The position numbers and the translations under genes were made by a program. A stretch of DNA of 23,258 bases, taken from IMG/VR virus record IMGVR_UViG_3300028393_000345, positions 1-23,258 of that record. One strand, 5' to 3'. The stretch is from a virus. Below the pieces are notes generated by a model. The model worked only from the letters and a program-made list of their open reading frames with translations. It had not been told where the DNA came from and made no database searches. Positions 1 to 22,709 of this stretch are shown here, piece by piece (the first letter of the stretch is position 1; the number at the start of each line of letters is the position of its first letter).

Positions 1-1039
1 AAATGTGATCTGAAGTTCCCGCAATTATGGCACCATTTGCAACAATTGCGCCACTAGAATAGTGAGTTTTCAGAATACTGGATGCGCCAACTATTGTCGA
101 GCCTGGTCCAACCAATACCCCAATAGATGAATGGACATGGGTCCGATTGGCCGTTCCGGTGACGTTTCCAAGCTGACCAACCAAATTCCCCGTCGATGGA
201 TGGGTGCGGAATCGGGTTGCAGAACCGGCAATTGTTGCTACTTGACCAGCCAAGTCACCCGTAGTTAAGTGAGCGCGGAATCGGGTTGCGCTTCCCATAA
301 CCATCGGACCGGGGCCAACTAGGATACCGCTAGTCAAATGCCTACGGGTGCGGGATGCCGCGCCAGCAATAGCCGAGCTTTGTCCAATCAGAGCGCCTGT
401 TGTTGAATGGTTTACTCTGCCCGATATTCGATTAGCAGCACCTGAAACAGCCGAGCCTGCGCCGATCAATGCGCCGGTTGACGGATAATTGTGTGTTCTA
501 GCCGCTGCACCAGAAACAGTTGATCCGGAACCAGTTAATGCGCCGGTTGACGAGTGAGCATGGGTTCGATTTGCCGAACCGCTAACAGCCGAGCCAGGGC
601 CAATCAGCGCGCCGGTTGACGGATGGACGTGAGTTCGGCTTGCAGAACCTGCAACAACTGAGCCGGGGCCAACGATAGCCCCGGTGGACGGATGGGTGCG
701 GAATCGCTTGGCTGCACCAGAAATAGTTGAGCCTGGGCCAACAATAGCGCCCGTTGAAGGGTGAACACGGGTTCGTTTGGCCGCACCGGCAATAGTCGAG
801 CCTGGGCCAGTTAAAGCTCCTGTTGAAGAATGTGCGCGAAATCGTTTAGCCGCACCGGCAATTGTTGATCCCGGGCCAGTCAATGCTCCTGTTGAAGGAT
901 GTGTGCGGAATCGTTTAGCTGCACCAGCAACCGTTGATCCTGGGCCAGTTAAAGCGCCTGTGGTTGTGTGTTTTGCCTTGTGCGCAGCAGAACCCGCGAT
1001 AATTGATCCAGGTCCAGTTAAAGAGCCTGTGGTTGTGTG
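1..1039 (-). repeat. 69-bp (23-residue) in-frame tandem repeat array in the fibre gene, about 15 copies
   Basis: Reading the minus strand from 1039 leftward, a unit with consensus H-x-S-T-G-A-L-x-G-x-G-S-x-x-x-G-x-A-x-R-x-x-x recurs at a 69-bp period (for example, equivalent CCNGGGCCAG sites at 801, 870 and 939). About 15 copies are present and the array continues past the window edge. Central copies are close to identical at protein level, while the copies nearest the left edge are more diverged. One copy (about 420-500) carries a 9-bp, three-residue insertion, so the spacing to the next copy is 78 bp. It is a coding repeat, not a CRISPR: there are no unique spacers and the reading frame is kept. 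Confidence 0.9.
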
Positions 1040-3631
1040 AGTGCCAGCAGTAGTTGGAACATAAGTGATGACAATTAAACCGGGGCCACCAGTGCCTCCA
1101 GTAACAACTTGACTGCTACTTGCGCCACCACCAGCGCCGCCGCCACCATATGCAGTATTTGTGTTTACTGCTACTAAACCAGTGCCGCCAGCACCACCAC
1201 CGCCACCAATTGAGTTAAGAACATCAACACCAATACCACCAATACCATTGCCGCCGGTATTTGAACCTCCACCACCACCGCCTCGAACTCCTGTACCTCC
1301 ATTAGCGACCCCGCCGCCATTACCAGCAGAATTATTACCACCAGTACCGCCAGTTGTGCCACTTGCAAGACCACCTATACTGCCGCCACCATTGCCGCCG
1401 CCGCCAGAACCCGCTGCACCAACCGAGGCCGCAGTTATACCTACACGACCAGCACCACCTGTTCCATTAGGGCCACCTGCGCCACCACCACCAGCACCAC
1501 CAGAAAAACCAGACCCGATATACCCGCCATTACCACCTGCGCCGCCGGTTGCAGTTGAACCAATACCACCCACCCCCCCAAGGTTGGCTGAAGCAATACT
1601 ACCCGTACCACCTTTACCACCAGCCGCAGTTGATGCGCCAGAATTCCAAGTAGTTGCAGTGCCATCCACTCCGGGGTTTGCTATTGCTCCACCAGTACCA
1701 CCAGTACCGCCAGTTCCTATCGCATAAGTAATTGTTCCTGAAAGCGTTTGGTTTGTTAACTGTGTGTATCCACCACCGCCACCACCAGCGCCAGATGCAA
1801 TACCCCCAGAAAAGAAACAGCCAGATGCACCACCACCAGCACCAAAAATGTGGATGGTGTTATTTGAATTGTTCCAATCAGCAGGAACAGTCCAACTTGT
1901 ACCTGAAGCAAGCGCATAAGCAACAGGTCCAACCGCCGAAAATAATGCCCCTTTTACATTACCACCATTTACGGAATTTGCACCCAAATACCATTTATAA
2001 GGAGCAGTTCCATTTGTGGCAAATGGTGTAAATGTTATGCTTGAAACACTAAGATAATCTGGAGTTGTTACTGTACCGCCACCATTTAACTGAATGCTTG
2101 TACCATTAGCACCTGTAAGAGTAAGCAATTTTCCCGCAGTGCCAGCGCCAGTAAAAGAATTTACTTGTATGCTGTTAGCTGGAAAAACAATCGATGTTGC
2201 CCCAGTCGCTGTATACGTTGCCGTAATGTTATTTAATACAAGTCCAGTAACACTTGGAATTGTTAATGCACCAGCGCCGCCATTATTCAAAGTGCAATTA
2301 AAAGTTGATCCGCCTGAAACAAAACTTTTAGCGGATGCGCTTGTAAGACTAATTGAGCCTGTGCCTGAACCTGCGGTAGTTGTAAATCCCGTTGGAACTG
2401 CATTGTTAAATGCGGTTGTACCTGATGCCGCAATTGCTAATGTGCCGCCATTAAACGTCAGGTTTTTTGTTCCTGTCGCTGTTAAAAATGTAGCCGTTGC
2501 AGTAGCAGAAAGTGTTAATGTTTTACCATTTAAGTCCAACGTACCATTGGTAAGCGTAACTGCTCCAGCAACAGCCGCACTTGTTGTTAACGCACTTTGA
2601 AGACTCCAAGAACCACCAACCCCATTAAATATAAATGGAACAGATAAAGTAATACCATTTGATGTAATTGTTCTTGATGTTATTGGGGGAGTACATAATG
2701 GTTGTAATGGCTGTGTTGAAGCAAATGTAATAGACCCTGTACCAGTCCATACAGTAGTTGATGCCAAAGACATCGACCCATTAACTGACAATGTTGCAGT
2801 TGATTGAGCAAATGTTACAGATGATCCTGATATATTAAAATCAAGACAAAATATAGTGCTAGAAGGACTAACTGTATATGGACCCGCTTGGTCAAAATAC
2901 ACATTATCTTGAGCTGTTGGAACAGGCGCTCCGCTTGCTCCACCAGAAGAAAATGCCCAGTTTGTTGTTGATGTTGTTGTCCAAGAACCTGAGCCGCCCA
3001 CCCAATAACGACCGCTTGGAATAAGCAATAAGTTAATTGCACAAAGTGTTGAGCTAACACTAAGTGTTGCTGTTCGTGCTGTAATAGCCCCTGCTGTTGC
3101 TTGCAGTTCATCAACAATCAACAAACCGCGATTTTGGCTTGATGGAAGGGTTGATCTATTTGCTCTTTCGGTTGTTGATGCTGGATCAGTCCATGTACCT
3201 GTTGCACCAGTAACCGCTGCACCATAAACACTAACAATATATTGGTTGTCGTAAACAGTTCCAAATGTTGTTGTTGTTGAGACTGTTGTTCCGGACGCTG
3301 CTGCTGTACGATTAGTTGTATAAAGACCACTAACTCCACGATAAGCAACAATACAAGACGATGTTGTTGCCCCCGATACCGTTACTACCTGACTAGTAGT
3401 GGGTTCTGTTCCACTTGCAAATTTGGTATATACAAAAAGATTGCTTGCTACTGAATCTTGTAATGTCCAACCAGATGGGGTTGTTGGAGTAGCTGTTGAG
3501 CAAACCGTTAATATTAAAAAATCACCTTGTTGAACAAGACCAGCGGGAGTATTACCCACTGGCGAGTGAAAACTTAACGATGGGTTTGCCCCAACAGTGA
3601 CCCCCGTAGAATCAACGTAAGCAATAGCCAT
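1..3631 (-). CDS. Large tail-fibre/adhesin-like protein with Gly-rich domain and 23-residue repeats (3' end outside window)
   Basis: The minus frame is open from an ATG at 3631 to the window edge (1210 codons, no stop), so the C-terminus is missing. Domains seen: residues 1 to about 110 look like a beta-sandwich (GDFLILTV, TPSGWTLQD) of the sort that opens many phage fibre proteins. From about 205 there is a WVGGSGSW...TNW segment followed by short Asn/Thr-rich strands typical of a beta-helix. At about 581 WTVPADW leads into a domain dominated by glycine (about 595-850), resembling the Gly_rich_2 family. From about 865 onward come tandem 23-residue repeats. This composition fits a virion fibre or surface-binding protein. 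The start lies 2 nt after the stop of the 58-aa gene, so the two are probably co-transcribed. The Shine-Dalgarno is weak. A role in host recognition is inferred from architecture only; an extracellular adhesin of a prophage is the alternative. Confidence 0.8.
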   Translation of the reverse strand, partial: MAIAYVDSTGVTVGANPSLSFHSPVGNTPAGLVQQGDFLILTVCSTATPTTPSGWTLQDSVASNLFVYTKFASGTEPTTSQVVTVSGATTSSCIVAYRGVSGLYTTNRTAAASGTTVSTTTTFGTVYDNQYIVSVYGAAVTGATGTWTDPASTTERANRSTLPSSQNRGLLIVDELQATAGAITARTATLSVSSTLCAINLLLIPSGRYWVGGSGSWTTTSTTNWAFSSGGASGAPVPTAQDNVYFDQAGPYTVSPSSTIFCLDFNISGSSVTFAQSTATLSVNGSMSLASTTVWTGTGSITFASTQPLQPLCTPPITSRTITSNGITLSVPFIFNGVGGSWSLQSALTTSAAVAGAVTLTNGTLDLNGKTLTLSATATATFLTATGTKNLTFNGGTLAIAASGTTAFNNAVPTGFTTTAGSGTGSISLTSASAKSFVSGGSTFNCTLNNGGAGALTIPSVTGLVLNNITATYTATGATSIVFPANSIQVNSFTGAGTAGKLLTLTGANGTSIQLNGGGTVTTPDYLSVSSITFTPFATNGTAPYKWYLGANSVNGGNVKGALFSAVGPVAYALASGTSWTVPADWNNSNNTIHIFGAGGGASGCFFSGGIASGAGGGGGGYTQLTNQTLSGTITYAIGTGGTGGTGGAIANPGVDGTATTWNSGASTAAGGKGGTGSIASANLGGVGGIGSTATGGAGGNGGYIGSGFSGGAGGGGAGGPNGTGGAGRVGITAASVGAAGSGGGGNGGGSIGGLASGTTGGTGGNNSAGNGGGVANGGTGVRGGGGGGSNTGGNGIGGIGVDVLNSIGGGGGAGGTGLVAVNTNTAYGGGGAGGGASSSQVVTGGTGGPGLIVITYVPTTAGTHTTTGSLTGPGSIIAGSAAHKAKHTTTGALTGPGSTVAGAAKRFRTHPSTGALTGPGSTIAGAAKRFRAHSSTGALTGPGSTIAGAAKRTRVHPSTGAIVGPGSTISGAAKRFRTHPSTGAIVGPGSVVAGSASRTHVHPSTGALIGPGSAVSGSANRTHAHSSTGALTGSGSTVSGAAARTHNYPSTGALIGAGSAVSGAANRISGRVNHSTTGALIGQSSAIAGAASRTRRHLTSGILVGPGPMVMGSATRFRAHLTTGDLAGQVATIAGSATRFRTHPSTGNLVGQLGNVTGTANRTHVHSSIGVLVGPGSTIVGASSILKTHYSSGAIVANGAIIAGTSDHI
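1075..1850 (-). other. Glycine-rich domain segment of the fibre protein
   Basis: On the minus strand this stretch encodes mostly Gly with Ala, Thr, Ser and Asn (runs such as GGTGGTGG, GAGGGG), bounded by IHIFGAGGG at the start and by GGTGGPGLIVITYVP at the end. That start and end match the usual limits of the Gly_rich_2 type of phage fibre domain. On the plus strand the same bases create an artificial proline-rich open frame. Glycine-rich domains in phage adhesins are known to form polyglycine-II helix bundles that contact host receptors; applying that here is an inference. Confidence 0.65.
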
Positions 3632-3874: not shown

Positions 3875-4267
3875 TTAAGCAGACAGCGCGGTATACGTCA
3901 GCGAACTGCAAGAAACCGTGTCACCGGCGGCAACTGTCAGGCCGTTGGTCATGTTGATGTCAGAACCCGAAGCAGCAACAGAACACTGAATGATGGCGGT
4001 GCCGCCAGAGGTTTGCAGGGTTGCAAACGCAACAGCAGACGCATTACCTGCGGCATTGGTGTCGCTCGTGATTGCGTTGGCCGTGGCGGTGCCAGAAGAT
4101 GACGCGCCAAAGGCAGTTGCCGACAAAGGCAAGGTGGCCACAGCAGTGCCAGGTGCGGCAATGGTTGAGGGCGAAATACGGAACACCAAGTTTCCGCTGG
4201 TGCCGATCAACGCGGTGACGGCGTCGGTTGCTGCGTTACGAGCCGACGTGCTGTGTGTTACTGCCAT
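3875..4267 (-). CDS. 130-aa Ala/Ser/Thr-rich phage protein, possibly a small virion protein
   Basis: Starts MAVTHSTSARNAATDAV and is rich in Ala, Ser, Thr and Gly, with only two cysteines, both near the C-terminus, and no membrane segment. The strand-and-turn composition suggests a compact beta-rich domain. GAAGGAG stands 7 nt before the ATG. The gene follows the 53-aa gene, overlapping it by 32 nt, and is the last gene before the terminator, the place where strongly expressed structural genes often sit. Short proteins with this N-terminal pattern (HSTxxRNAxxDAVxxLI) recur in phages and are usually left as hypothetical. A decoration or head-completion protein is possible but unproven. Confidence 0.75.
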   Translation of the reverse strand: MAVTHSTSARNAATDAVTALIGTSGNLVFRISPSTIAAPGTAVATLPLSATAFGASSSGTATANAITSDTNAAGNASAVAFATLQTSGGTAIIQCSVAASGSDINMTNGLTVAAGDTVSCSSLTYTALSA

Positions 4268-4397
4268 TTTGAAGCTCCTTCAATTTGTCTTCGTCGAGGT
4301 ATCCGACGAGTTCGACGGTTTCGGTTTTACCCGTTTCTTTTCGGGTAATCTCAAGGGTAAACCGTAGTTCACCAGGTTGTCCTGCAAGTTCTATCAT
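4236..4397 (-). CDS. 53-aa overlapped small protein of unknown function
   Basis: A short frame beginning MIELAGQPGELRF and ending QHVGS. Its ATG overlaps the stop of the upstream gene as ATGA (4394-4397), and its 3' end overlaps the next gene by 32 nt, so the GAAGGAG ribosome site of the next gene lies inside it. The sequence is charged and fully hydrophilic (TLEITRKETGKTETVEL, then GYLDEDKLKELQNG), resembling a small beta-hairpin plus helix. It fills what would otherwise be a 126-nt gap in a tightly packed operon. It is probably expressed by translational coupling. I do not recognise a family. Confidence 0.6.
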   Translation of the reverse strand: MIELAGQPGELRFTLEITRKETGKTETVELVGYLDEDKLKELQNGSNTQHVGS

Positions 4398-4756
4398 GCC
4401 AGAAATCTCAGTTTGTACAAGGTAGACAAGTACCGGCCAACAATTTCATCAATTATATTCTGCAAAGCGGTATCTTCTTTGCTCACCACCTTGTACCGAC
4501 CATCCTCAATGTCTTTGAGCGAGTCTTGCAAGAACTCAACAATGTTGGTCGTTTTCTTGGCACTTAGCAAGCTGATTGGTCCAATCAACTCGTGACGGCC
4601 TTGGTACGCTTCGGTGAAATTGTCAGCCAGTTCAATGATTTCATTGTAGAACTCATTGAGCGCCATGTGCTTAGAGAAACTGCGGGTGTTCAAATGCACC
4701 GAGTGCGCAACATCACGCGCAAGAAACAGCGTGCCTACAAAATCAGCGGGTTTCAT
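4394..4756 (-). CDS. DUF5856-like phage protein
   Basis: A 120-aa protein, mostly helical by composition, with the segment LFLARDVAHSVHLNTRSFSKHMALNEFY near residues 10-37 followed by acidic and hydrophobic helices (EIIELADNFTEAYQG). Its start overlaps the portal stop as ATGA (4753-4756). The His/Glu pattern (H18, H21, H30, E35) and helix-bundle look resemble a ferritin/Dps-like fold. From memory it matches the phage family DUF5856, with function unknown. Its position directly after the portal suggests an accessory role in the virion or its assembly, but metal binding or a non-structural role cannot be excluded. Confidence 0.7.
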   Translation of the reverse strand: MKPADFVGTLFLARDVAHSVHLNTRSFSKHMALNEFYNEIIELADNFTEAYQGRHELIGPISLLSAKKTTNIVEFLQDSLKDIEDGRYKVVSKEDTALQNIIDEIVGRYLSTLYKLRFLA

Positions 4757-6939
4757 TGTTGCATCCCTTCAGTCGATTCTGGCATACCCGGCATTTGACG
4801 CGGTTCCGACTGCTCTACCTCTGGGCGTGCGGCCATCAAGTCACCGCTATTGATCATCGAGTGGATAGTACCCACAGCGATGTCCTGAATCTGTTCCGGT
4901 GACATACTGGCCTGAATTGCAGAGATGCGCTGCGTTTCGGCTTGGAATGCCTTGATGTCAGCCTCATAGTCTTTGCGACGCTGCTCCTGCATTTCAATAG
5001 ATTTGCCCACGTTTTGCAACATCTGGTGCATCTGTTCCATTTCCTGGCCCATCGCCTGCATCTGCTGCTGGGCGGCAGCCAGTGCCGGGTTGTCCTCGGC
5101 ATCATCCATGAGCTTGGGGTCAATAGTCTTGGCAAACCGTTTGGCCATCTCTTGAGCGCCTGGCCAATCCATGTTCTTCACAAACAAGTCACCAGCCACC
5201 TGCCAAAGTTGGGGGTTACCCTGCAACAGTTGAGCCATAGCCTCCAAAGCCTCTTGGCGCTTGGTGGCATAGCCTGGGCCGGTGGTAACCACCACATCGT
5301 ATTTGCCAACGGTGGGGTTGTAAATTTTGTCGATCACAATCCCATGCTCGTTTTGCACTTTGCGAACGGCTTCGGGCTGGGTCGGGTCAATCTTGACCAT
5401 ATCAGACTCGCCGTCTTCGCCAATAATCCGAGCGATACGCTGGGTGTCGTAAATCTTGGGGATCAGGTCCACCAACTGACGGGTGACATAGCGCACTGCA
5501 CGAGCCAAGTTGTCAACATAGTGATAGGTTCCGGTATCACCCTCGCGCTGACGCGCCAGGATGGCTTTGCCAGATCGCTCGTTGCCTTGCTGACCCAGTG
5601 ATGCGTCGTACTGGCCAGTCGTGGATTTAATGTCCTCAGAGGCCCCTGCTTTGGCTTGCAGCAGGCCAGATGACGCCATCGGGGGCTGGGCACGCTGGGG
5701 CAAAGGCAAAATAGCGCCCTGGCCATCGGTAACATCAGGGTTTACCTCTAAATACGGCCAGTTGGTCGTGTTGGCGGTCTTCCACTGGTTTTCATAGCCC
5801 TCAAACTGGCCACCATAGCCAATAAACGGGGCCTTGGGTGCCAGAGCCAGCATCTCTGCCTCTTGGGACACCCAGTAGTTGTACATCCGCTGTGCGTCTT
5901 TGGCATTTCGGACCAAACCGCTCATGTAGATGCGGCCATCCACCTCAAATTCGTTGCCAATGACCTTTACAACCGGAATCCAAGCACCGGCCCAGTCGCG
6001 TTCTTCCAAGATTTCGTAGCCGTTGATCTTGCACCACTTGACCTTCTTGATCTCCACCTCGCGCTTTTGCTTGGGAGCGCCGTACATGGCCTTCATGGCC
6101 TTGTCTTCAGGCGTGCCAGCGTAATAGGACTGGTTGCCAGGGTACAAGTGCAGCGTTTTGTGGTCGTAGTCGATGTAGAAATACTCGGCAATTCGCACTG
6201 TATTTTCGTTAATCCACTGGTTAATGGACTGATCGCCCACGCCCATCGACTGCAAGGTGTTAATCGGCGCAGCGTTGGGGTACAGCCGGTGATATTCCTC
6301 TTTTGGTATATCTTCGGTGATAAAACACCACTTGGCATCAGCACCGCAAGGGTCTTGAATCATGGGGTCCATGTAGACCGAGAACGAATTGCGGATACGG
6401 CCAATCTTAATGTCCTGATTGAACGATTTATCGTCGCAATACTCGGTCAAGATGCGCAGGTAACCCTCGCCATACGCCACTTGGTTCTCGCAGGCCGTGT
6501 CGTATGCAACATCGGCGTCGCTGATGTACTCAATGTGACGCACGATGCCATTAAACACCTCGGCCACCTGAATGTCGGCACCGTCATCGGCTGGGATGAC
6601 TTTTCCAGATGGGCGATTCTGGCGCTGGTCGTTTGTGACTTGGCGAACGTGCTGGGGCAGCTTGTTGATTGTCAGGCAGGGACGAGCATTGATCGTCTGG
6701 CCTTGCACAGCGCCACGGGTAGACAGCACATCGGCTGGCCACTGCCACTGGTTGTCGGGCGAACCGGCAAAGAACCGCAGGTCATCCAGCTCATCCTCAC
6801 GGGACTCAGAATAGGCCGAGATGGCCATGTCCAAACGGCTTCTGGCCGTACTCAGCACATCGGCAGAGCTTTTGTCCTTGGCCGAGCCGCCTTCGGATAC
6901 AGCAGCGGCGGCGGTGATCCCGGTGTAATCTTGAGGCAT
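4753..6939 (-). CDS. Portal protein, P22-like
   Basis: 728 residues, very close to the 725 of P22 gp1. The portal is the dodecameric ring at one capsid vertex through which the terminase pumps DNA and to which the tail attaches. Visible hallmarks: INARPCLTINKLPQHVRQVTNDQRQNRP near residues 83-110 (the conserved P22-portal signature), a central mixed domain with many Tyr/Trp, GQYDASLG and GNERSGKAIL around 440-460, and a long Gln/Met-rich coiled coil near 610-680 that fits the helical barrel. It begins at a TAATG overlap with the preceding lysine-rich gene and ends in an ATGA overlap with the DUF5856-like gene, so the block is one operon with terL. No frameshift or truncation was seen. Confidence 0.93.
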   Translation of the reverse strand: MPQDYTGITAAAAVSEGGSAKDKSSADVLSTARSRLDMAISAYSESREDELDDLRFFAGSPDNQWQWPADVLSTRGAVQGQTINARPCLTINKLPQHVRQVTNDQRQNRPSGKVIPADDGADIQVAEVFNGIVRHIEYISDADVAYDTACENQVAYGEGYLRILTEYCDDKSFNQDIKIGRIRNSFSVYMDPMIQDPCGADAKWCFITEDIPKEEYHRLYPNAAPINTLQSMGVGDQSINQWINENTVRIAEYFYIDYDHKTLHLYPGNQSYYAGTPEDKAMKAMYGAPKQKREVEIKKVKWCKINGYEILEERDWAGAWIPVVKVIGNEFEVDGRIYMSGLVRNAKDAQRMYNYWVSQEAEMLALAPKAPFIGYGGQFEGYENQWKTANTTNWPYLEVNPDVTDGQGAILPLPQRAQPPMASSGLLQAKAGASEDIKSTTGQYDASLGQQGNERSGKAILARQREGDTGTYHYVDNLARAVRYVTRQLVDLIPKIYDTQRIARIIGEDGESDMVKIDPTQPEAVRKVQNEHGIVIDKIYNPTVGKYDVVVTTGPGYATKRQEALEAMAQLLQGNPQLWQVAGDLFVKNMDWPGAQEMAKRFAKTIDPKLMDDAEDNPALAAAQQQMQAMGQEMEQMHQMLQNVGKSIEMQEQRRKDYEADIKAFQAETQRISAIQASMSPEQIQDIAVGTIHSMINSGDLMAARPEVEQSEPRQMPGMPESTEGMQQ

Positions 6940-13712: not shown

Positions 13713-16181
13713 CTATTCGTCTAAAAGGTTAGCACCGTAGACCTTTGGTTTTTCTTTGGGTGACAACTTATAGATGTCATTAAGCTGGCGCTGCTTGGCC
13801 TCAATAATTGACCGGCGATGGTCGGCAAACATAGTAGTCAACCTTGGGTCAATTGCCCATTGTGCGTGGTGTCGATGCTCGCCAGTGCCATCGTCCATAC
13901 GGATTACCCACTTGCCGTCCTCAAGCACCTGCATGGCGCCCAGAACCCATTGATCCTGCACCCAATTGTTTATCCCCTCGAGCTGGCGCCTGCCTGAACG
14001 CTTGATTTCGGACAGTGTAACCATCTGCTTGTCGGCGTGTTGAATCACATATTCAATGACCCACTGATCAAAGCTGGATGTGCCCCCAATGTCGTCAAAC
14101 GCATACCGATAGACTGGGATAATGTAGGAGCGCACGAGCTTGATTACACGGCGCAGCAGCTCTGCGCTGACTGTGGGGCTGAAGGGATTCTCAATGATGT
14201 GAAACACGAGCGCCAGGCGGCCAACCGTACCCTCGAGCTTACCAAATGCTGTCAGAAAAGTGTTGCCGCTATGCAACAGTATCTCATCCTGCTTGGTGTC
14301 CGCATACCATTGTTGGAACTCGCGAAACACATCATATGCTTCTGGCGACAACTTAAAAGTAGTGACCGGCATGGCATAGGCAATCCGAATTGCATTGTTC
14401 CACGCTTCAATGTTTAACATGAAATCGGGCAAAGGCTGACCAATGCCCCAGTTGCGATTGCGCAACACTGCTGGTATAAACCTTTGTAACAGGCCATCCG
14501 CTGCGAGAGAGGCTTTGCTTTGTGCAAAAACTTCAGGCTGGACATTCCCGTAAATCGCAACGGCCATATTCTCGGCTCGGATTGACCCAGTCCCCACACG
14601 ATCCATCTCGTATCTGTCTGACTCGTAGCTTACAACCCAAGCCGAACGATCTTCACCAGATGCTCGGTTCTTCATTCGCTCTATCCAGTTGCTCATCTCG
14701 TCCAGAATACAGATCAGCCCACGGGGACGGTCTGCCGCCTCACGCACCAGCTTTTGACTGGTAATGTCGCTGACCTTAATCCGAACGGGCACGGGCTTGG
14801 TGGGCAGATCGTGAACCATAGGGGCTTGGTCGGTGCCGAGCAATGCCTCGGGACTGGCCGAGAACTCCAGATACGCTTTGTGTGATGCTGCCCATGCAGC
14901 CTCTCGCCCCTCCCACTCCAGCTTCTCTTTGTTGTAGCGCGGGATGTCGGCCATCTCCAACTCAGTCAGAACTTCAAACATGGGCTTGGAGGCTGGGGAT
15001 TTTTTAAGCGCAGGGTTTCCGATAGTCATTAGCCAAAGAACTGGCGGCACCTTAAACCTGGGCATCAACTCAAGCCGAGTGCGTGCATCAACCGCCCCAC
15101 AGACGGCAGACAGGCCAGCAAATAAGGGAACCAACGGATCGCACCCAATCTCAATGGCCACTTGGTTAGCACGGTCGCACAACACTTTAGGCCATAGCGC
15201 CACATCCATGTCAGGTGGCAAAGGGCGCAGGCCAGAGATCAATTCGTCGGGAGTAATCTTGGGCGGCTCGGTGTTTTTGAACAGGTCGGACACATCAATA
15301 GCTGGGCGCACCCAACCGGACTGTTTGGCCAAGTGAAACAAGGTGCCCAACTTAACGGAGTTGTCTTTATCAGAACGAAAACTCTTCCATTGTTGGGTGA
15401 GTGCCTTTTCGCCAGGATACTTTGCAGACGGCAAGCTCCAGTCATTCCACAACATCAGTGCTTGGTCGAGCTGGTCTGTCTGATTGCCAGCCCAATGCAA
15501 CGCCATGCCGCAGTTGATCCATTCTTCTCGTGAACAGTCGGGGTTGATATGAGCTAATGCACCACCGATCTCTTCCCAACTAGCGTCCATCACTTCGCCG
15601 GTGGCAATCGTGCGCGTCTTGTCGTTTTCCAACATCCCAAGCCAAAGGTCAAGCAGGGGCTGTGGAATCATTGGCAGGCGGGTCCAATTACCATTGCCTG
15701 CCCAGCGATAGGGTTGGTTTGTCTCAGGGTGAATCGAGGGTGGCAGAACATCCTGCACAGTGAGACCGTTAGCCGTAGCGCAACGCAACTCGTATGCGGT
15801 GATGCTGTTGACCATGATTTTCTTAGTGGGCAGGCACAACCCGTCAGGCATCCGATAAAGCAGCTTACCGTGCCCTGGTCGACCCGACTCAATGATCACT
15901 GCATCGGCTGCGTTGTAGTAACCGTTGATGTCGATGCCCTGTGCAACAGTGGCGTCCCAGTTGTCAATGTCCAACGCCATCGTGCCGCTGTACGCATGGG
16001 CTAAACCAATGCCATAGCCAGGTGGTAAATCGGCTTGGGTTTTCAGAGCGTTTTTACGCAGATTCCACCCTTGTGTGCGAGGGCCTTTGGTGCCAGCAGG
16101 GATTGGTACAAGACTCCACCCATGTCGGATGTAAGCGTCAATTGATGCGGGATGGGGTTGCACTTGGGTTGCTGTGTTCAT
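13713..16181 (-). CDS. Primase/helicase-like replication protein: Prim-Pol + PriCT-2 + DUF3987
   Basis: 822 residues. Prim-Pol domain (about 12-170): GYGIGLAH, ALDIDNWD with D71/D73, IIESGRPGHGKLLYR (S99..H104), and LPPSIHPETNQPYRW (146-160), the usual order of the bifunctional primase/polymerase. PriCT-2-like domain about 205-285 (LAHINPDCSREEWINCGMAL then HWAG). The DUF3987-type ATPase/helicase-like domain from about 330 has a Walker-A-like IGNPALKKSPA (387-397) and Walker-B-like GLICILDEMSNW (488-499). In Walker A the glycine before the lysine is replaced by lysine, so ATP use is uncertain. It should prime phage DNA synthesis, supplying the polymerase encoded on the opposite strand. It starts in the divergent control region and leads a leftward group. 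Confidence 0.88.
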   Translation of the reverse strand: MNTATQVQPHPASIDAYIRHGWSLVPIPAGTKGPRTQGWNLRKNALKTQADLPPGYGIGLAHAYSGTMALDIDNWDATVAQGIDINGYYNAADAVIIESGRPGHGKLLYRMPDGLCLPTKKIMVNSITAYELRCATANGLTVQDVLPPSIHPETNQPYRWAGNGNWTRLPMIPQPLLDLWLGMLENDKTRTIATGEVMDASWEEIGGALAHINPDCSREEWINCGMALHWAGNQTDQLDQALMLWNDWSLPSAKYPGEKALTQQWKSFRSDKDNSVKLGTLFHLAKQSGWVRPAIDVSDLFKNTEPPKITPDELISGLRPLPPDMDVALWPKVLCDRANQVAIEIGCDPLVPLFAGLSAVCGAVDARTRLELMPRFKVPPVLWLMTIGNPALKKSPASKPMFEVLTELEMADIPRYNKEKLEWEGREAAWAASHKAYLEFSASPEALLGTDQAPMVHDLPTKPVPVRIKVSDITSQKLVREAADRPRGLICILDEMSNWIERMKNRASGEDRSAWVVSYESDRYEMDRVGTGSIRAENMAVAIYGNVQPEVFAQSKASLAADGLLQRFIPAVLRNRNWGIGQPLPDFMLNIEAWNNAIRIAYAMPVTTFKLSPEAYDVFREFQQWYADTKQDEILLHSGNTFLTAFGKLEGTVGRLALVFHIIENPFSPTVSAELLRRVIKLVRSYIIPVYRYAFDDIGGTSSFDQWVIEYVIQHADKQMVTLSEIKRSGRRQLEGINNWVQDQWVLGAMQVLEDGKWVIRMDDGTGEHRHHAQWAIDPRLTTMFADHRRSIIEAKQRQLNDIYKLSPKEKPKVYGANLLDE

Positions 16182-16544: not shown

Positions 16545-16923
16545 AATTGAGGCGTTAACCGCCGCCGTGATCGCCCTGACCGCCAAGCTGGAGTCTGGCA
16601 CTGTACCAGTAGCTGCGCCCGAGGTGCAAGCTCCGGTAGTTGAAGTTGCACCTGCTCCAGTAGTAGCAGCCGCACCCGTGATGCCTGCTCCCCCAGTGTT
16701 TGTAACACCCGTTACTGTCGCACCGGCGACACCTGTGGCTGTTGCACCGTTCTCGGATAGCAAGGGTTTGATCGACTATGTCATGGGCGCTTATAAGACC
16801 CTTGGTCCACAAAAGGGTGGACAGATTCAGACAGTGCTGACCGGCATGGGTTACCAAAACATCAACGATGTGAAGCCCGAGCATTACGCCCAGTTGGTAG
16901 CTGGTGTGGAAGCATTGAAATGA
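16528..16923 (+). CDS. 131-aa protein with Pro/Ala/Val-rich linker and conserved C-terminal domain
   Basis: A helical N-terminus (MSLENKIEALTAAVIALTAKLE, coiled-coil like) is joined by a low-complexity Ala/Pro/Val linker (about 26-75) to a compact C-terminal domain (about 76-131: DYVMGAYKTLGPQKGGQIQT then GMGYQNINDVKPEHYAQLVA). I know similar C-termini from phage proteins placed before DUF2800-type nucleases, with no proven function. GAAGGA lies 8 nt before the ATG. ATGA overlap with the nuclease gene. It could be an oligomeric partner of the nuclease or the ssDNA-binding protein. Confidence 0.75.
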   Translation: MSLENKIEALTAAVIALTAKLESGTVPVAAPEVQAPVVEVAPAPVVAAAPVMPAPPVFVTPVTVAPATPVAVAPFSDSKGLIDYVMGAYKTLGPQKGGQIQTVLTGMGYQNINDVKPEHYAQLVAGVEALK

Positions 16924-18218
16924 GTGCACACGCTCAACTGTCGCCCTCCAAACGTAACCGCTGGGCCTTGTGCCCAGGGTCTATTCGTGAGGAAGCAAAG
17001 TACCCGGAGCAAGAGTCCGGTGCTGCCTCAGTGGACGGTACTCATACCCACACCTTGTTGGAACACTGCATCAAGACTGGCTTGGCTAACCCGTTGCCCA
17101 TGATTGGTCTGACGTTCAAGGACCATGAGGGTGAGTTTACCGTTGACAAAGGTCGTGCCGAACGGGTAAAGGTGGCGATTGATTACATCCACAGTCGCGT
17201 AAGTGATTACAACGGTCTGTGTGAAGTGTATGCCGAGACCCGGGTTGACCCCAAGTATCTACTTGGTCGTGATGACATGGGTGGAACTGTTGACGTTCAG
17301 CTTCTGGGTGGCGACACCATTGAGCTGATCGACTACAAGGACGGCATGAATCCGGTAAGCGCCGAGGATAATCACCAGTTGCAGCAGTATGCGATGGGTG
17401 TGTTGGCTGGGTTTCAAATTCCCGTGAACCTTGAATACCCGTTTAAGACTGTTCGCATGACAATTGTTCAACCGAAAAATGCTATCAGGGGCCTAAGTCC
17501 GATAGTTTTTTCCGAAGTGCCGGTCAAGAATATCTTGGACATGATTGGTACAATGGTTGTTCAAGCCAAAGCAACCGATGCACCGGATGCGCCGCTTGTA
17601 CCGGGCGAAAGTCAGTGTAAGTTTTGCCGTGCAAAGGGGTCATGCTCCGCGCTGGCAGGCAATGTAATGAAAGAGATGGGTGTCATGTTTCCCACAGTAA
17701 TCCAAACGCTCGATGTTGCGCAGCAAAGCGCAGATAAAGACCCCAGTACGATGGACGATTCACAGATTCGTCAGATCATCGAAGCAGCCCCCTTGATGCG
17801 ACAGCTTCTCGAGTCAGTTGAAGAAGAGGCCATGCGCCGGATGAAAGCTGGGCAAATTATTCCTGGTCTCAAGTTGGTTAATGGTCGTGGGTCCCGAGCA
17901 TGGTCGCTCAAAGAAGATGAAATGGCCGAGAAGCTCGTGAAGATGGGCATCCCCAAAGGCGCCATCTATGAAACTAAACTTGTGAGTCCTGCTAAAGCTG
18001 AAAAGCTCACCTGGCTCAAAAAAGACGGCACGCAAGTCCAATTGACTGATCGTCAACTGCAACGCATGGAGCAAGACTATGTCGTTAAGATGGCTGGCAA
18101 GCTCACCGTTGCATCCGAATCTGACAGCCGCCCCGCTGTCATCACAAATGCTGCACCTATGTTCAGTGCAGTAGAGGTAGCACCTGCTGCCGAATCCTTG
18201 CCCTCGTGGCTCTCGTAA
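16920..18218 (+). CDS. DUF2800 family Cas4/RecB-like nuclease
   Basis: 432 residues. The start LSPSKRNRWALCPGSIREE is the family signature. PD-(D/E)XK core: GTHTHTLLEH (H42, H44), GGTVDVQLL (D125), IELIDYKDG (D138, K140) and QLQQYA (153-158). Cysteines C18, C233, C236 and C242 (CKFCRAKGSC) match the four ligands of a Cas4/AddB-like iron-sulfur cluster. A C-terminal extension of about 180 residues is less conserved, with KKDGTQVQLTDRQLQRMEQD near 365-385. It should be a DNA end-processing exonuclease for phage recombination and replication. ATGA overlap upstream; DUF2815 follows after 18 nt. Confidence 0.9.
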   Translation: MSAHAQLSPSKRNRWALCPGSIREEAKYPEQESGAASVDGTHTHTLLEHCIKTGLANPLPMIGLTFKDHEGEFTVDKGRAERVKVAIDYIHSRVSDYNGLCEVYAETRVDPKYLLGRDDMGGTVDVQLLGGDTIELIDYKDGMNPVSAEDNHQLQQYAMGVLAGFQIPVNLEYPFKTVRMTIVQPKNAIRGLSPIVFSEVPVKNILDMIGTMVVQAKATDAPDAPLVPGESQCKFCRAKGSCSALAGNVMKEMGVMFPTVIQTLDVAQQSADKDPSTMDDSQIRQIIEAAPLMRQLLESVEEEAMRRMKAGQIIPGLKLVNGRGSRAWSLKEDEMAEKLVKMGIPKGAIYETKLVSPAKAEKLTWLKKDGTQVQLTDRQLQRMEQDYVVKMAGKLTVASESDSRPAVITNAAPMFSAVEVAPAAESLPSWLS

Positions 18219-18236: not shown

Positions 18237-18905
18237 ATGTCCGATATCGTTTTTCTGTCTAGCGTTCGTTTGTCTTTTCCTCACCTTGCTGAACCCCAGA
18301 AGCAAGTGAATGAAGCCACCGGCGCCACCCGTATTAGCTACAACGCTGAGTTCATCATGCCGCAGGACCATGCAGGATTTCAGCAGTTTATGAAACGCTA
18401 TGCCGATATGGCACTGGAGAAGTTTAAGGATCACGCTCAGACAGTAATGGCCATGATTCAGAATGATCGTAAAACCCGTTGCTTCGGTTTGGGTAACGAG
18501 AAGATCAACAAGAAGACATTCTTGCCATACGATGGTTACGCTGGCCAAGTTTTTATCACTGCTGGCCGTGACTCGCAGCCCCAGATGATTCAGGCTGATG
18601 GCTCACCCGTTGACCCCAGCAACACGATGGCTTACCAGCAGCTTGCACGCAAGATGTACGGTGGATGTCGCGTCAATGCCGCTATCAAACCTTGGATGCA
18701 AGACAACAAGCATGGTCGTGGCATCCGTTGCGATCTGATTGCTGTGCAATTTGCTGGGGACGATACGCCATTTGGCGAGGGTTCTGTTGACGCATCAAAC
18801 CTGTTTGGTGCCGTGGCCGGTGCTGCTGCTGGTTTTGGTGCAGTGTCTCCAACGATGCCTGCTGCACCGTTCCAAGGGCTTCCTTCGTTCTTAGGCGGCA
18901 ATTAA
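18237..18905 (+). CDS. DUF2815 protein, probable single-stranded DNA-binding protein
   Basis: 222 residues: VFLSSVRLSFPHLAEPQKQV at the start, YNAEFIMPQDH, KNDR-type basic patch (IQNDRKTRCFG), LPYDGYAGQVFITAGRDSQP, KMYGGCRVNAAI and GIRCDLIAVQFAGDDTPFGEG. This order is typical of DUF2815, a family usually adjacent to DUF2800 and considered similar to T7 gp2.5 single-strand-binding proteins. The C-terminus (about 187-222) is Ala/Gly/Pro-rich and flexible, but it is not the acidic tip usual in SSBs. GAAAGG stands 8 nt before the ATG. It would coat ssDNA for the polymerase and helicase. Confidence 0.85.
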   Translation: MSDIVFLSSVRLSFPHLAEPQKQVNEATGATRISYNAEFIMPQDHAGFQQFMKRYADMALEKFKDHAQTVMAMIQNDRKTRCFGLGNEKINKKTFLPYDGYAGQVFITAGRDSQPQMIQADGSPVDPSNTMAYQQLARKMYGGCRVNAAIKPWMQDNKHGRGIRCDLIAVQFAGDDTPFGEGSVDASNLFGAVAGAAAGFGAVSPTMPAAPFQGLPSFLGGN

Positions 18906-18923: not shown

Positions 18924-18986
18924 ATGCTGCTAACAATGTGGGTTCATCCACAAGCAGACGCAGCGAGTACCCCACCTCTTGAGTAA
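18924..18986 (+). CDS. Possible 20-aa leader peptide upstream of the polymerase
   Basis: MLLTMWVHPQADAASTPPLE is encoded after a GGGGGAAAG ribosome site, and its TAA overlaps the polymerase ATG as TAATG (18984-18988). The polymerase start has no strong ribosome site of its own, so coupled reinitiation from this peptide would explain how it is translated. Very short, no homology to judge by; it could be coincidence. Confidence 0.35.
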   Translation: MLLTMWVHPQADAASTPPLE

Positions 18987-20848
18987 TGGTTATGAGTAAC
19001 GATTATGTATTCGACATTGAAACATTTCCAAACGTGTTTACCTTGGCCGTTGAACACGCTGATGCCCCGCTGCGCTGGATGTTTGAGATAAGTCCTTGGC
19101 GTAATGATTCCAAGCAGATCGTGGAGTTCCTCCAGTATCTCAAGAATACTGACGCACGCATGATCGGGTTTAACAACCTCGGGTTTGATTACCCTGTGAT
19201 TCACACATTGGTCCGAATGGGTCAGAGCGATGCCAACACGCTGTATCAAAAAGCTCAGGCTATCATTGACGCGCAAGATGATGACAGTCGATGGATGCAC
19301 CAAGTCAATCCTACGGATCGGTTTGTGCAACAGATTGACTTGTTCAAAATCCATCACTTTGACAACCGCGCACGTTCAACCAGTCTAAAGATGCTGGAGT
19401 TCAATATGCGCTCAGAAAGCATCGAGGACCTGCCGTTCCCTGTGGGCACCATGCTAACTCAAGAGCAGGCCCAGGTGTTGAAGAAATATAATCAGCATGA
19501 TGTCAGCGAGACCAAGAAGTTCATGGGATTTACCAAGGACATGATTCAGTTTCGCGAGAAGCTGTGCGCCTTATATCCTGGCCGAGATTGGTTGAATTAC
19601 AACGACACCAAGATTGGCAAAGAGTATTTCATTATGAGTTTGGAACAGGCTCAGGTGACCTGCTATGACTATTCTGACAAGGGTCGCACACCTCGTCAGT
19701 CCAAGCGCCCTGTGATTCATTTGCGGGATGCGATTCTGCCTTGGATTAATTTTCAAGCGCCTGCGTTTACTCAGATGCTGAACTGGCTTAAGGCACAAAG
19801 CATCACTGAGACCAAGGGTGTATTTACCGACCTAAGTGCACGGGTCAATGGATTTGATTTTGTTTTTGGATTGGGTGGGATTCATGGGTCAGTTACGTCA
19901 GAAGTCATCGAGTCAGATATTGACCGAGTCATCGTGGATTTGGATGTCACGTCATACTATCCAAGTTTGGCGATCAAGAATGGGTTCTTCCCCGCACACT
20001 TGGGTAAAGAGTTCTGTGCCATCTATGCCAAGCTATTTGAGCAACGAAAAGGATACCCCAAAAGTTCCCCAGAATCAGCAATGTTAAAGCTCGCGCTTAA
20101 CGGCGTATATGGGGATAGCAACAACCAGTTCAGCGTGTTTTATGATCCGCTGTACACCATGACAATTACTCTAAATGGGCAATTATTGTTGTGTATGCTG
20201 GCCGAAGCATTGATGCAAATTGATGGGCTTCGTTTGCTTCAGGTAAATACCGACGGGCTGACCGTGTCGATTCCACGGGTTAACAAGGATATGCTGGACG
20301 CTGCTCGCATGGTGTGGGAAAACGCCACTAAGTTGCAGCTCGAAGAATCCACCTACAAGCGGATGTCAATTCGGGATGTAAACAACTACTTGGCAGAATA
20401 TGACAACGGCAAGGTTAAGCGCAAGGGCGCATACGAGTATGACCAAGACTGGTCCCAGAATCACGGCGCCTTGGTGATTGCCAAGGTGGCAGAGAAGGTC
20501 CTGATCGAAGGCGCACCGATTCGTAAGACTGTTGAAAGCTGGCCTGATGTAATGGATTTCATGCTACGCACCAAAGTGCCTCGCTCGAGTCACTTGGCTA
20601 TCGAATACCCTGGCCAAGAGCCGCAAAAGTTGCAAAACATTACCCGCTATTATATTGCCAAAAACGGTGGCCATCTTTTCAAATGGATGCCCCCGTTAGC
20701 TAAGAAGCCAAACGACTGGCGCAAGATCGGCGTGGAAGCTGGGTGGGGTGTGCAACCCTGCAATGACATTCGGGATGCTGGAAAGCTGCCGATTGAGTTT
20801 GATTATTACATTCGAGAAGTGGAAAAGCTATGTCTTTCACTCGCATAA
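18986..20848 (+). CDS. Family B-type DNA polymerase with 3'-5' exonuclease (compact, 620 aa)
   Basis: Exonuclease motifs: FDIETFPN (D10, E12), GFNNLGFDYP (D68) and YNQHD (Y168, D172). Polymerase motifs: GLGGIHGS (296-302), motif A DVTSYYPS (D320-S327), motif B KLALNGVYG (368-376), motif C VNTDGL (420-425) and KxY-like KRKGAYEYD (478-486). These order as in B-family enzymes; motif C has N-T-D-G instead of D-T-D-S. Only about 48 residues separate motif A from motif B, leaving no place for the TPR1 insertion of protein-primed enzymes. It replicates phage DNA, probably primed by the Prim-Pol product. I kept the ATG at 18986 because of the TAATG overlap; an ATG six bases later is equally possible. 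Confidence 0.9.
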   Translation: MVMSNDYVFDIETFPNVFTLAVEHADAPLRWMFEISPWRNDSKQIVEFLQYLKNTDARMIGFNNLGFDYPVIHTLVRMGQSDANTLYQKAQAIIDAQDDDSRWMHQVNPTDRFVQQIDLFKIHHFDNRARSTSLKMLEFNMRSESIEDLPFPVGTMLTQEQAQVLKKYNQHDVSETKKFMGFTKDMIQFREKLCALYPGRDWLNYNDTKIGKEYFIMSLEQAQVTCYDYSDKGRTPRQSKRPVIHLRDAILPWINFQAPAFTQMLNWLKAQSITETKGVFTDLSARVNGFDFVFGLGGIHGSVTSEVIESDIDRVIVDLDVTSYYPSLAIKNGFFPAHLGKEFCAIYAKLFEQRKGYPKSSPESAMLKLALNGVYGDSNNQFSVFYDPLYTMTITLNGQLLLCMLAEALMQIDGLRLLQVNTDGLTVSIPRVNKDMLDAARMVWENATKLQLEESTYKRMSIRDVNNYLAEYDNGKVKRKGAYEYDQDWSQNHGALVIAKVAEKVLIEGAPIRKTVESWPDVMDFMLRTKVPRSSHLAIEYPGQEPQKLQNITRYYIAKNGGHLFKWMPPLAKKPNDWRKIGVEAGWGVQPCNDIRDAGKLPIEFDYYIREVEKLCLSLA

Positions 20849-20864: not shown

Positions 20865-21044
20865 ATGATGATGTTTACCCTTGAAGCCTACGAGGCACAG
20901 ATGGAATTAACCCGGTCTATTGAGCGCCATAGAATCGCACGATTGTTGCGCCAGGCAGCAGAAGATCACCCAAAATGGGAAACGCATAATCTTTTGCAAC
21001 TACTGGCCCAGGAGGTGGAAGATCATGCTGGAAAAGCAAATTGA
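20865..21044 (+). CDS. 59-aa small helical protein between polymerase and VRR-NUC
   Basis: Three consecutive ATG codons begin the gene (20865, 20868, 20871), the first 7 nt after AAAGGAG. The sequence (MMMFTLEAYEAQMELTRSIE, then RHRIARLLRQAAEDHPKW) is almost wholly amphipathic helix with acidic and basic patches. Its end overlaps the VRR-NUC gene by 20 nt and contains that gene's AGGAGG. Not a known family to me; it could be an accessory of the nuclease. Confidence 0.7.
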   Translation: MMMFTLEAYEAQMELTRSIERHRIARLLRQAAEDHPKWETHNLLQLLAQEVEDHAGKAN

Positions 21045-21309
21045 AGCCCGAGTCTGTGAATACGCCAGGACAAAGAGTGTGCTTGCGTACAAGTTCACCA
21101 GCCCCGCACGGGCTGCTGTGCCAGATCGTTTGTTCATCTCGCCAAATGGACGTATGTGGTTCTGTGAATTTAAGCGTGAAGGACAGAAGGCAACTGTGGC
21201 TCAAGAACGAGAGCACGCCAAACTCCGACAACAAAAAGTAAATGTGTTTGTAATTGATAACGTAACTGAAGGAAAAACGATGATTGATTTAATGGTGATG
21301 GGATGCTGA
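21025..21309 (+). CDS. VRR-NUC domain nuclease (94 aa)
   Basis: A minimal VRR-NUC: E3, then SPARAAVPDRLFISPNGRMW with D34, and FCEFKREGQKAT with E48 and K50, which together form the PD-(D/E)XK catalytic set; H64 may complete it. The frame is open further upstream, but AGGAGG 9 nt before the ATG at 21025 decides the start. Standalone phage VRR-NUCs are thought to resolve branched DNA such as Holliday junctions. It overlaps the helicase gene by 7 nt, so the two are probably made together. Confidence 0.9.
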   Translation: MLEKQIEARVCEYARTKSVLAYKFTSPARAAVPDRLFISPNGRMWFCEFKREGQKATVAQEREHAKLRQQKVNVFVIDNVTEGKTMIDLMVMGC

Positions 21310-22709
21310 CGCCAGACTTACTGCACGAGTATCAAAAAAAAGCTGTTAACTTCCAGTGCACTCACCCCGAGTCGATGCTTTGGCTGGACATGGGCTTGGG
21401 TAAAACGGTAATTACGCTTACAGCACTCTCGCATTTGATCAACACTGGTTTTCTGACTGGTGTGGTTATCGTGGCGCCAATTCGCGTTATCCGATTAGTC
21501 TGGCGTCAAGAAGCGTTAAAGTGGCAACACACCAAAGACATCAAGTTCAGTATGGTGACCGGCACCAAGGATCAGCGTACCCGTGCGCTTTTGCGCCCTG
21601 CGGATGTGTATCTTATTAACTACGAAAACTTGGGCTGGTTATCTGAAACCTTGCAAACTTACTTTGTCAAAAAAGACAAGCCTTTGCCGTTCAACGGCAT
21701 TGTCTGGGATGAAATAAGTAAGATGAAAAACAGCGCCACTGCGCGCGTCAAAGCATTCCGCAAAATCGCAGAAAAGTTTGTCTGGACGACAGGATTGACT
21801 GGCACCCCAGCGTCCAACGGTTACAAAGACCTGCATGGTCAGTTCCTTGTTGTTGATAAGGGGCAGCGTTTAGGCACCAGTAAGACAGCTTTCAAGACTC
21901 GGTTTTATCGCAAAATAGGACCATTCAAAGAGCTGCCTTACGACGATACAGAAAGCACAATCAAAAACCTGATTGGTGACATCACACTTGAGATGAGCGC
22001 CGAGGATTACAACCCGTTGCCCGATTTGATGGTTAACAACATCAATATCGAAATGCCCGAGGAGCTTCGCGGCAAGTATGACCAAATGGAAAAAGAGTTT
22101 TTCTTGACGTTGGACAGCGGCAAAGAAGTTGAGATGTTTAACCAAGCTGCTTTAACTAACAAGTGTCTTCAGTTTTCCAACGGTGCCATGTACCCAGTTG
22201 CAGGGATGCCCTTGTGGGAACCAATCCATGACCTAAAGCTGGATGCACTTGAGGAAATCATTGACGAGGCTCAAGGAAGCCCTGTGCTTTGCTCGTATGC
22301 CTACCGCAGCGATGCTCAAAGGATCATGGAAAAGTTCAAAGCACTTGATCCAATTAACTTGACTGAGTGTAAGTCTGAAGCATCGTTGATTAACGCTATG
22401 AAACGATGGGCAGCCAATGATTGCGTTTTGATGATTGGGCACCCGGCATCAATGGGTCATGGAATCGACGGACTCCAAAAGAACGGCCACATTCTTGTGT
22501 GGTATGGGCTTAACTGGAGTCTGGATTTGTATGACCAGTTCAATGCCCGTGTGCGCAGGCAAGGACAGGGCGCGCCTGTTTTATGTCACAGAATCTTGAT
22601 GCAGGACACCCTGGATCAAGCTCAAGCCTTGGCCCTTGATGAAAAGGCCACAACCCAAGCAGGACTGCGAAATGCGGTCAAGCAATACCGACACCAAAAA
22701 GGAGTTTGA
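21303..22709 (+). CDS. SNF2/DEAD-like helicase
   Basis: 468 residues with superfamily 2 motifs in order: Q-motif-like LLHEYQKKAV (7-15), motif I DMGLGKT (29-35), Ia VVIVAPIRVI, motif II VWDEISKMKN (133-142), motif III GLTGTPAS (163-170), motif V GHPASMGHGIDGL (378-390) and motif VI QFNARVRRQGQ (411-421). This is the short SNF2-type helicase common in phage replication modules beside a VRR-NUC and a polymerase. It lacks chromatin-remodeller extensions. Likely a DNA translocase or branch-migration motor working with the nuclease. The motif II acids and the motif VI arginines are kept, so it should be active. Confidence 0.92.
   Translation: MLTPDLLHEYQKKAVNFQCTHPESMLWLDMGLGKTVITLTALSHLINTGFLTGVVIVAPIRVIRLVWRQEALKWQHTKDIKFSMVTGTKDQRTRALLRPADVYLINYENLGWLSETLQTYFVKKDKPLPFNGIVWDEISKMKNSATARVKAFRKIAEKFVWTTGLTGTPASNGYKDLHGQFLVVDKGQRLGTSKTAFKTRFYRKIGPFKELPYDDTESTIKNLIGDITLEMSAEDYNPLPDLMVNNINIEMPEELRGKYDQMEKEFFLTLDSGKEVEMFNQAALTNKCLQFSNGAMYPVAGMPLWEPIHDLKLDALEEIIDEAQGSPVLCSYAYRSDAQRIMEKFKALDPINLTECKSEASLINAMKRWAANDCVLMIGHPASMGHGIDGLQKNGHILVWYGLNWSLDLYDQFNARVRRQGQGAPVLCHRILMQDTLDQAQALALDEKATTQAGLRNAVKQYRHQKGV

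Follow-up and report, generated by a model that had tools for sequence, protein, structure and literature searches.

The polymerase of this virus is a member of the crAss-like group of B-family DNA polymerases (PolBs), which is already known, widespread and little studied. Its gene, a 620-aa open reading frame with an ATG start at positions 18986..20848 (+) of the window (the whole 23,258-base virus fragment that was analysed), encodes a compact B-family polymerase with a 3'-5' exonuclease. The best explanation of our results, to which we give a probability of about 0.88, is a replicative, RNA/DNA-primed, proofreading PolB belonging to that group; its activity, the source of its primers and a compensation between two Asn residues of its active site are parts of this reading that we infer. 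Judging by its occurrence across homologous sequences, the NTDG form of motif C is the normal signature of the crAss-like group and is not peculiar to this virus.

All the motifs of the enzyme lie on the plus strand. The exonuclease domain contains Exo I (D10-I-E12, 19013..19021), Exo II (N63...D68, 19172..19189) and Exo III (Y168-x3-D172, 19487..19501). GGIH (G297, G298, H300; 19874..19885) stands at the position of the YxGG-type motif, which we take to be the linker between the exonuclease and polymerase domains. The polymerase domain has motif A (D318-L-D320-V-T-S-Y-Y-P326, reading DVTSYYP from D320; 19937..19963), motif B (K368-LALNGVY-G376, 20087..20113) and motif C (N421-T-D423-G, within QVNTDGLTV; 20246..20257). 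Past motif C there is a conserved acid, E453 (20342..20344), which lines up with the acidic residue of LEIEFETHY in E. coli Pol II and of LELEYEG in KOD, followed by a KxY equivalent (N466-N-Y468, 20381..20389) and by a KRKG motif (K478-G481, 20417..20428) that was seen in the alignment of 60 homologues and is aligned with FKG of Pol II. The initial annotation had described a compact family B enzyme with an intact exonuclease and no TPR1, and the reading of the frame and its motifs, the profile searches and the predicted fold all bear this out. We also found, as it had stated, 48 residues between motifs A and B (D320 to K368) and an Asn in place of the first carboxylate of motif C. Its comparison of NTDG with the usual DTDS holds for the Asn, which is unusual, but not for the Gly, which is ordinary, as archaeal PolBs have DTDG. 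Likewise, a spacing between motifs A and B of well over 100 residues is true of phi29 (134) and RB69 (149), but that comparison took in only phi29-like and T4-like enzymes. PRD1 has 120 residues and E. coli Pol II only 74, and the spacing of 48 is thus short, yet just 26 under that of Pol II.

These features are not due to chance, since they are invariant or nearly so, together with the catalytic and exonuclease residues, across an alignment of 60 diverse homologues with identities down to about 23-25%. D and E of Exo I, N63 and D68 of Exo II, Exo III, GGIH, D320, S323 and P326 of motif A, K368, N372 and G376 of motif B, and N, T and D of motif C are the same in 60/60, as is N466. The Gly of motif C is conserved in 59/60, and the acid at position 453 is Glu in 57/60 and Asp in 3/60. 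Two positions ahead of the motif A Asp, D318 is found in 54/60 and missing from 6/60, with His in its place in crAssphage. The spacing between motifs A and B is 48 in 40/60 and 50 in 13/60, with an overall range of 44-75. NTDG was present in every further homologue from bacterial assemblies with an intact motif C region, a sister family with KTDS excepted, while the homologue genes without NTDG are fragments or interrupted. A DTDS string found in 11 homologues is a chance occurrence, as it sits in the exonuclease domain and not in motif C.

Several observations on the homologues are worth recording. A separate ORF splits three related polymerase genes at one shared site (L010, 1988-2515; L129, 3305-3976; L139, 2350-2850), equivalent to residues 473-476 of the polymerase studied here, immediately ahead of the KRKG motif. 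The interrupting ORF of L129 resembles a GIY-YIG homing endonuclease, and no intron was recognised when the split polymerase genes were searched with Rfam. A distant homologue (L152 and L153, about 3942-5071) is split around motif A by a GIY-YIG-like ORF (IYCIRN..KYIGKS), and the viral contig L152 also has, upstream of its polymerase gene, a gene for a tmRNA (1052-1420; Rfam RF00023, 55 bits). Gordonia and Arthrobacter phage proteins annotated as primase/polymerase (H176-H179) match only the exonuclease part of the polymerase family, which suggests that other fusions make use of this domain as well. An identical polymerase is found in a second IMG/VR record (3300027708_000308, 22,991 bases), which could derive from a second assembly of one and the same sample.

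The gene is part of a replication module. A PrimPol-PriCT_2-DUF3987 helicase gene (13713..16181, minus strand; PF09250, PF08707, PF13148) encodes the phage's own primase-helicase. It is followed on the plus strand by genes for a DUF2800 / PD-(D/E)XK exonuclease (16920..18218, from profile searches), an Enc34-type (DUF2815, gp2.5-like) single-stranded DNA-binding protein (SSB; 18237..18905, PF10991), the PolB, a VRR-NUC-type nuclease / resolvase (20920..21309, of which 21025-21297 is homologous to the nuclease of phage DSL-LC05) and a SNF2-family helicase (21303..22709; phrog_62, 86% identical to the SNF2 of DSL-LC05). This order matches those of DSL-LC05 and Burkholderia phage AH2, both with the same B-type polymerase. 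Components of these types have also been described in the Enc34 module (PMC5686142), and in crAssphage the SNF2 gene lies directly 3' of the crAss-like polymerase. In view of these modules, a B-type enzyme in this slot, which had been considered notable, is well precedented. Elsewhere in the window, a 1210-aa open frame (2-3631, minus strand) beyond the portal and virion genes runs off the edge and has no Pfam or PHROGs match, and a small gene between the portal and virion genes (4394-4756, minus strand) matches phrog_858, 'starvation-inducible transcriptional regulator' (E=5e-25).

The Asn of motif C could be disabling, in which case the enzyme would be a catalytically weak or specialised (translesion or repair) polymerase, PolB2-like, and the host polymerase would copy the genome. 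Archaeal B2 polymerases, which also lack the first motif C Asp, are indeed weak, damage-tolerance enzymes (PMC7544198). However, B2 polymerases have lost their exonuclease motifs, while here these are invariant in all 60 homologues. Furthermore, no second polymerase, either of family A or another B, was detected among the searched genes of the window, and the gene sits in a replication module with its own PrimPol. As the window is a fragment, the rest of the genome may still encode another polymerase. On balance, we regard a weak or repair enzyme as improbable. An inactivated enzyme is not favoured either, as every other catalytic and exonuclease residue is invariant in the 60 homologues; PolBs that lack the first motif C Asp and are active have been described, namely piPolB and archaeal B2 (PMC7544198).

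Protein-primed or primer-independent synthesis, as in phi29-like or piPolB-like polymerases, seems very unlikely. The size of the protein is near that of phi29 polymerase, and piPolBs also lack the first Asp (PMC7544198). However, TPR1 and TPR2 are insertions specific to protein-primed polymerases (PMC6921018), and 48 residues between motifs A and B leave no room for TPR1. The spacing between motifs B and C, 53 residues here and 51-54 in 60/60 homologues, compared with 73 in phi29 and 88 in PRD1, has no room for TPR2. Besides, the genome encodes a PrimPol primase, and a profile built solely from relatives with at least 46% identity to our polymerase failed to recognise phi29 and PRD1 (both >100). 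The same profile found cr50_1 (Crassvirales, 4e-89), NP1 (3e-81), AH2 (1e-61) and crAssphage (2e-56), and reached RB69 at 1e-4 and Pol II at 2e-3.

According to the PHROGs profile search, the polymerase belongs to phrog_1252, 'DNA polymerase' (E=6.1e-186, residues 3-615), a subfamily also matched by crAssphage, AH2, SANTOR1, V07, NP1, RcWata, LN34 and cr50_1, and in which members such as crAssphage, AH2, NP1, SE1Kor and V07 have the same NTDG and a short spacing between motifs A and B. Homologues were found by tblastn in 955 of 50,697 isolate-phage records, with identities from 75% (DSL-LC05) to about 25%. In a tree of 46 rows, a single branch (96/89; recovered in 98% of bootstrap trees) sets the 29 crAss-like rows apart from the Pol II/T4, protein-primed and helicase-fused PolBs, with one change of label. 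This group takes in crAssphage, Queuovirinae, Casjensviridae and Sashavirus, and our polymerase adjoins that of DSL-LC05. The AlphaFold2 model, from 44 aligned sequences, shows a confident PolB fold (mean pLDDT 93.3, pTM 0.88). Among the solved structures of the PDB, Foldseek matched it best to archaeal family-B polymerases and to pol alpha, and the best matches among the BFVD viral predictions include the polymerases of crAss-like phages cr3_1 and cr11_1 and of crAssphage. In the predicted secondary structure NTD stands at a hairpin turn between strands 416-420 and 424-430, where motif C would be expected. No family A match was obtained in Pfam, NCBIfam or PHROGs, and Foldseek gives family B. 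Pfam (DNA_pol_B included) and NCBIfam searches gave nothing above threshold, so that the polymerase looks orphaned to Pfam-based annotation. As a side observation, the record of Vibrio phage V07 (MT135025; 349 kb) is classed as Schizotequatrovirus and marked UNVERIFIED, yet has a Queuovirinae-type polymerase, and may be a mixed assembly.

The crAss-like PolB group was named in 2020 by Kazlauskas et al., who flagged its divergent MotifC and KxY (PMC7544198). To judge from crAssphage's own sequence rather than from the published logo, that divergent MotifC would be NTDG; crAssphage has NTDG at motif C and NNY at KxY, exactly as our polymerase does. The idea of a distinct, undescribed lineage, put forward in the initial annotation and in line with the missing Pfam DNA_pol_B match and merely sub-threshold NCBIfam matches, is hardly tenable, as the polymerase falls in phrog_1252, groups with crAssphage in the tree and fits a group described in 2020.

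The replicative reading has to account for the active site. D320 and D423 correspond to D411 and D623 of RB69, which bridge the catalytic metals. N421 occupies the position of RB69 D621 and N466 that of K706, two residues whose side chains the primer minor groove reportedly holds in place together. N466-N-Y468 falls on the KxY motif, with N466 in place of the Lys, in each of two separate profile alignments (KOD; Pol II/RB69); contrary to these, a multi-family MAFFT alignment shifts KxY of Pol II by one residue. The RB69 triad of D411, D621 and D623 has been described as engaged directly or indirectly (PMC3792054), and the KxY residues steady the primer terminus in phi29 (PMC6921018). The two positions hold Asp/Lys in canonical enzymes, Asn/Asn in the crAss-like group and Lys/Ala in the sister family, which suggests that they are partners. 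The joint substitution to N421 and N466 may thus represent a compensating pair.

We hypothesize that a replicative, RNA/DNA-primed, proofreading PolB of a tailed phage would work as follows. The PrimPol-DUF3987 protein of the phage itself would most likely make the primers, the template would be coated by the DUF2815 protein, and the polymerase would extend and proofread. Two catalytic metals would be held by D320 of motif A and D423 of motif C, while the charged Asp/Lys pair would be replaced by an uncharged, hydrogen-bonding Asn/Asn pair (N421/N466), with the primer end still positioned. D318 may restore some negative charge in most members, although not in crAssphage. As the sole general compensation D318 was ruled out, because of its absence from 6/60 homologues, crAssphage included.

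It is tempting to propose, at somewhat less than even odds, that the two positions interact and that the Asp/Lys pair has been rewired in two ways, becoming Asn/Asn throughout the crAss-like group and Lys/Ala in the sister helicase-PolB family, where the lysine would have moved to the opposite partner. The KTDS group sits beside the crAss-like one in the tree, so that Asp and Lys may not have been lost independently in the two. No independent third loss of the Asp was found in the cellular PolBs searched, which comprised only DTDS/KKRY Pol II and DTDG archaeal enzymes. If the pair was rewired, PolB catalysis would need only two carboxylates, the contact with the primer end could be rebuilt without charge, and a very abundant group of phage enzymes would have a distinct metal dependence or fidelity.

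This enzyme alone adds little; what matters is the group, with about 1000 isolate-phage records, crAssphage included, and an unusual active site. In the open literature we found no account of the activity or other biochemistry of any crAss-like member, nor of how catalysis proceeds in its active site when the customary first acid is missing, and a literature search for DNA polymerases with NTDG returned no polymerase paper. A comparison of Asn/Asn, Asp/Lys and Lys/Ala enzymes would test the role of the first motif C carboxylate, and the putative Asn421/Asn466 pair is the one idea that we think worth carrying forward.

Among known systems, phi29 and PRD1 polymerases are clearly different, with spacings between motifs A and B and between motifs B and C of 134/73 and 120/88, respectively, against 48/53 here. 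Archaeal PolB2 and bacterial G2 enzymes have an unconserved ExoI, no ExoIII, a D(K/R) motif and a His in motif C (PMC7544198), whereas in our polymerase ExoI and ExoIII are invariant and motif C has no His. Archaeal PolBs (KOD, 9N, Pfu) and E. coli Pol II / RB69 share the PolB fold and the order of exonuclease and polymerase motifs, but they retain the motif C Asp (DTDG in archaea) and the KxY Lys, and have longer fingers (motifs A and B are 74 residues apart in Pol II and 149 in RB69). The sister family phrog_4210 consists of helicase-PolB fusions from gut Clostridia and other assemblies (L218-L242), probably the HelPrimPolB group. In the tree it adjoins the crAss-like group, with 98/92 support for the two together, and it also lacks the first motif C Asp, but it has KTDS at motif C, AxY at KxY and an N-terminal primase/helicase-type domain, for a length of about 1350 aa. 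Our polymerase has no such fusion; its 620 aa comprise exonuclease and polymerase only, and the PrimPol-helicase is encoded by a separate gene. Phage AH2 (Nazgul-like, Casjensviridae) has, as here, PrimPol, DUF2800-type exonuclease, SSB, PolB, resolvase and helicase in this order, although its polymerase (684 aa) is only 25% identical. The polymerase of DSL-LC05 (WJZ48139.1) is 75% identical, has the same motifs and lies in the same order of RecB-like exonuclease, SSB, PolB, nuclease and SNF2; for a 'nucleotide kinase' ORF overlapping its end, we found no counterpart in the window. Finally, our polymerase equals the crAss-like group (phrog_1252; PMC7544198) in full-length homology, NTDG, NxY for KxY, an intact exonuclease and the lack of TPR1 and TPR2. 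Nothing sets it apart from that group beyond normal divergence, its spacing of 48 being the commonest there.
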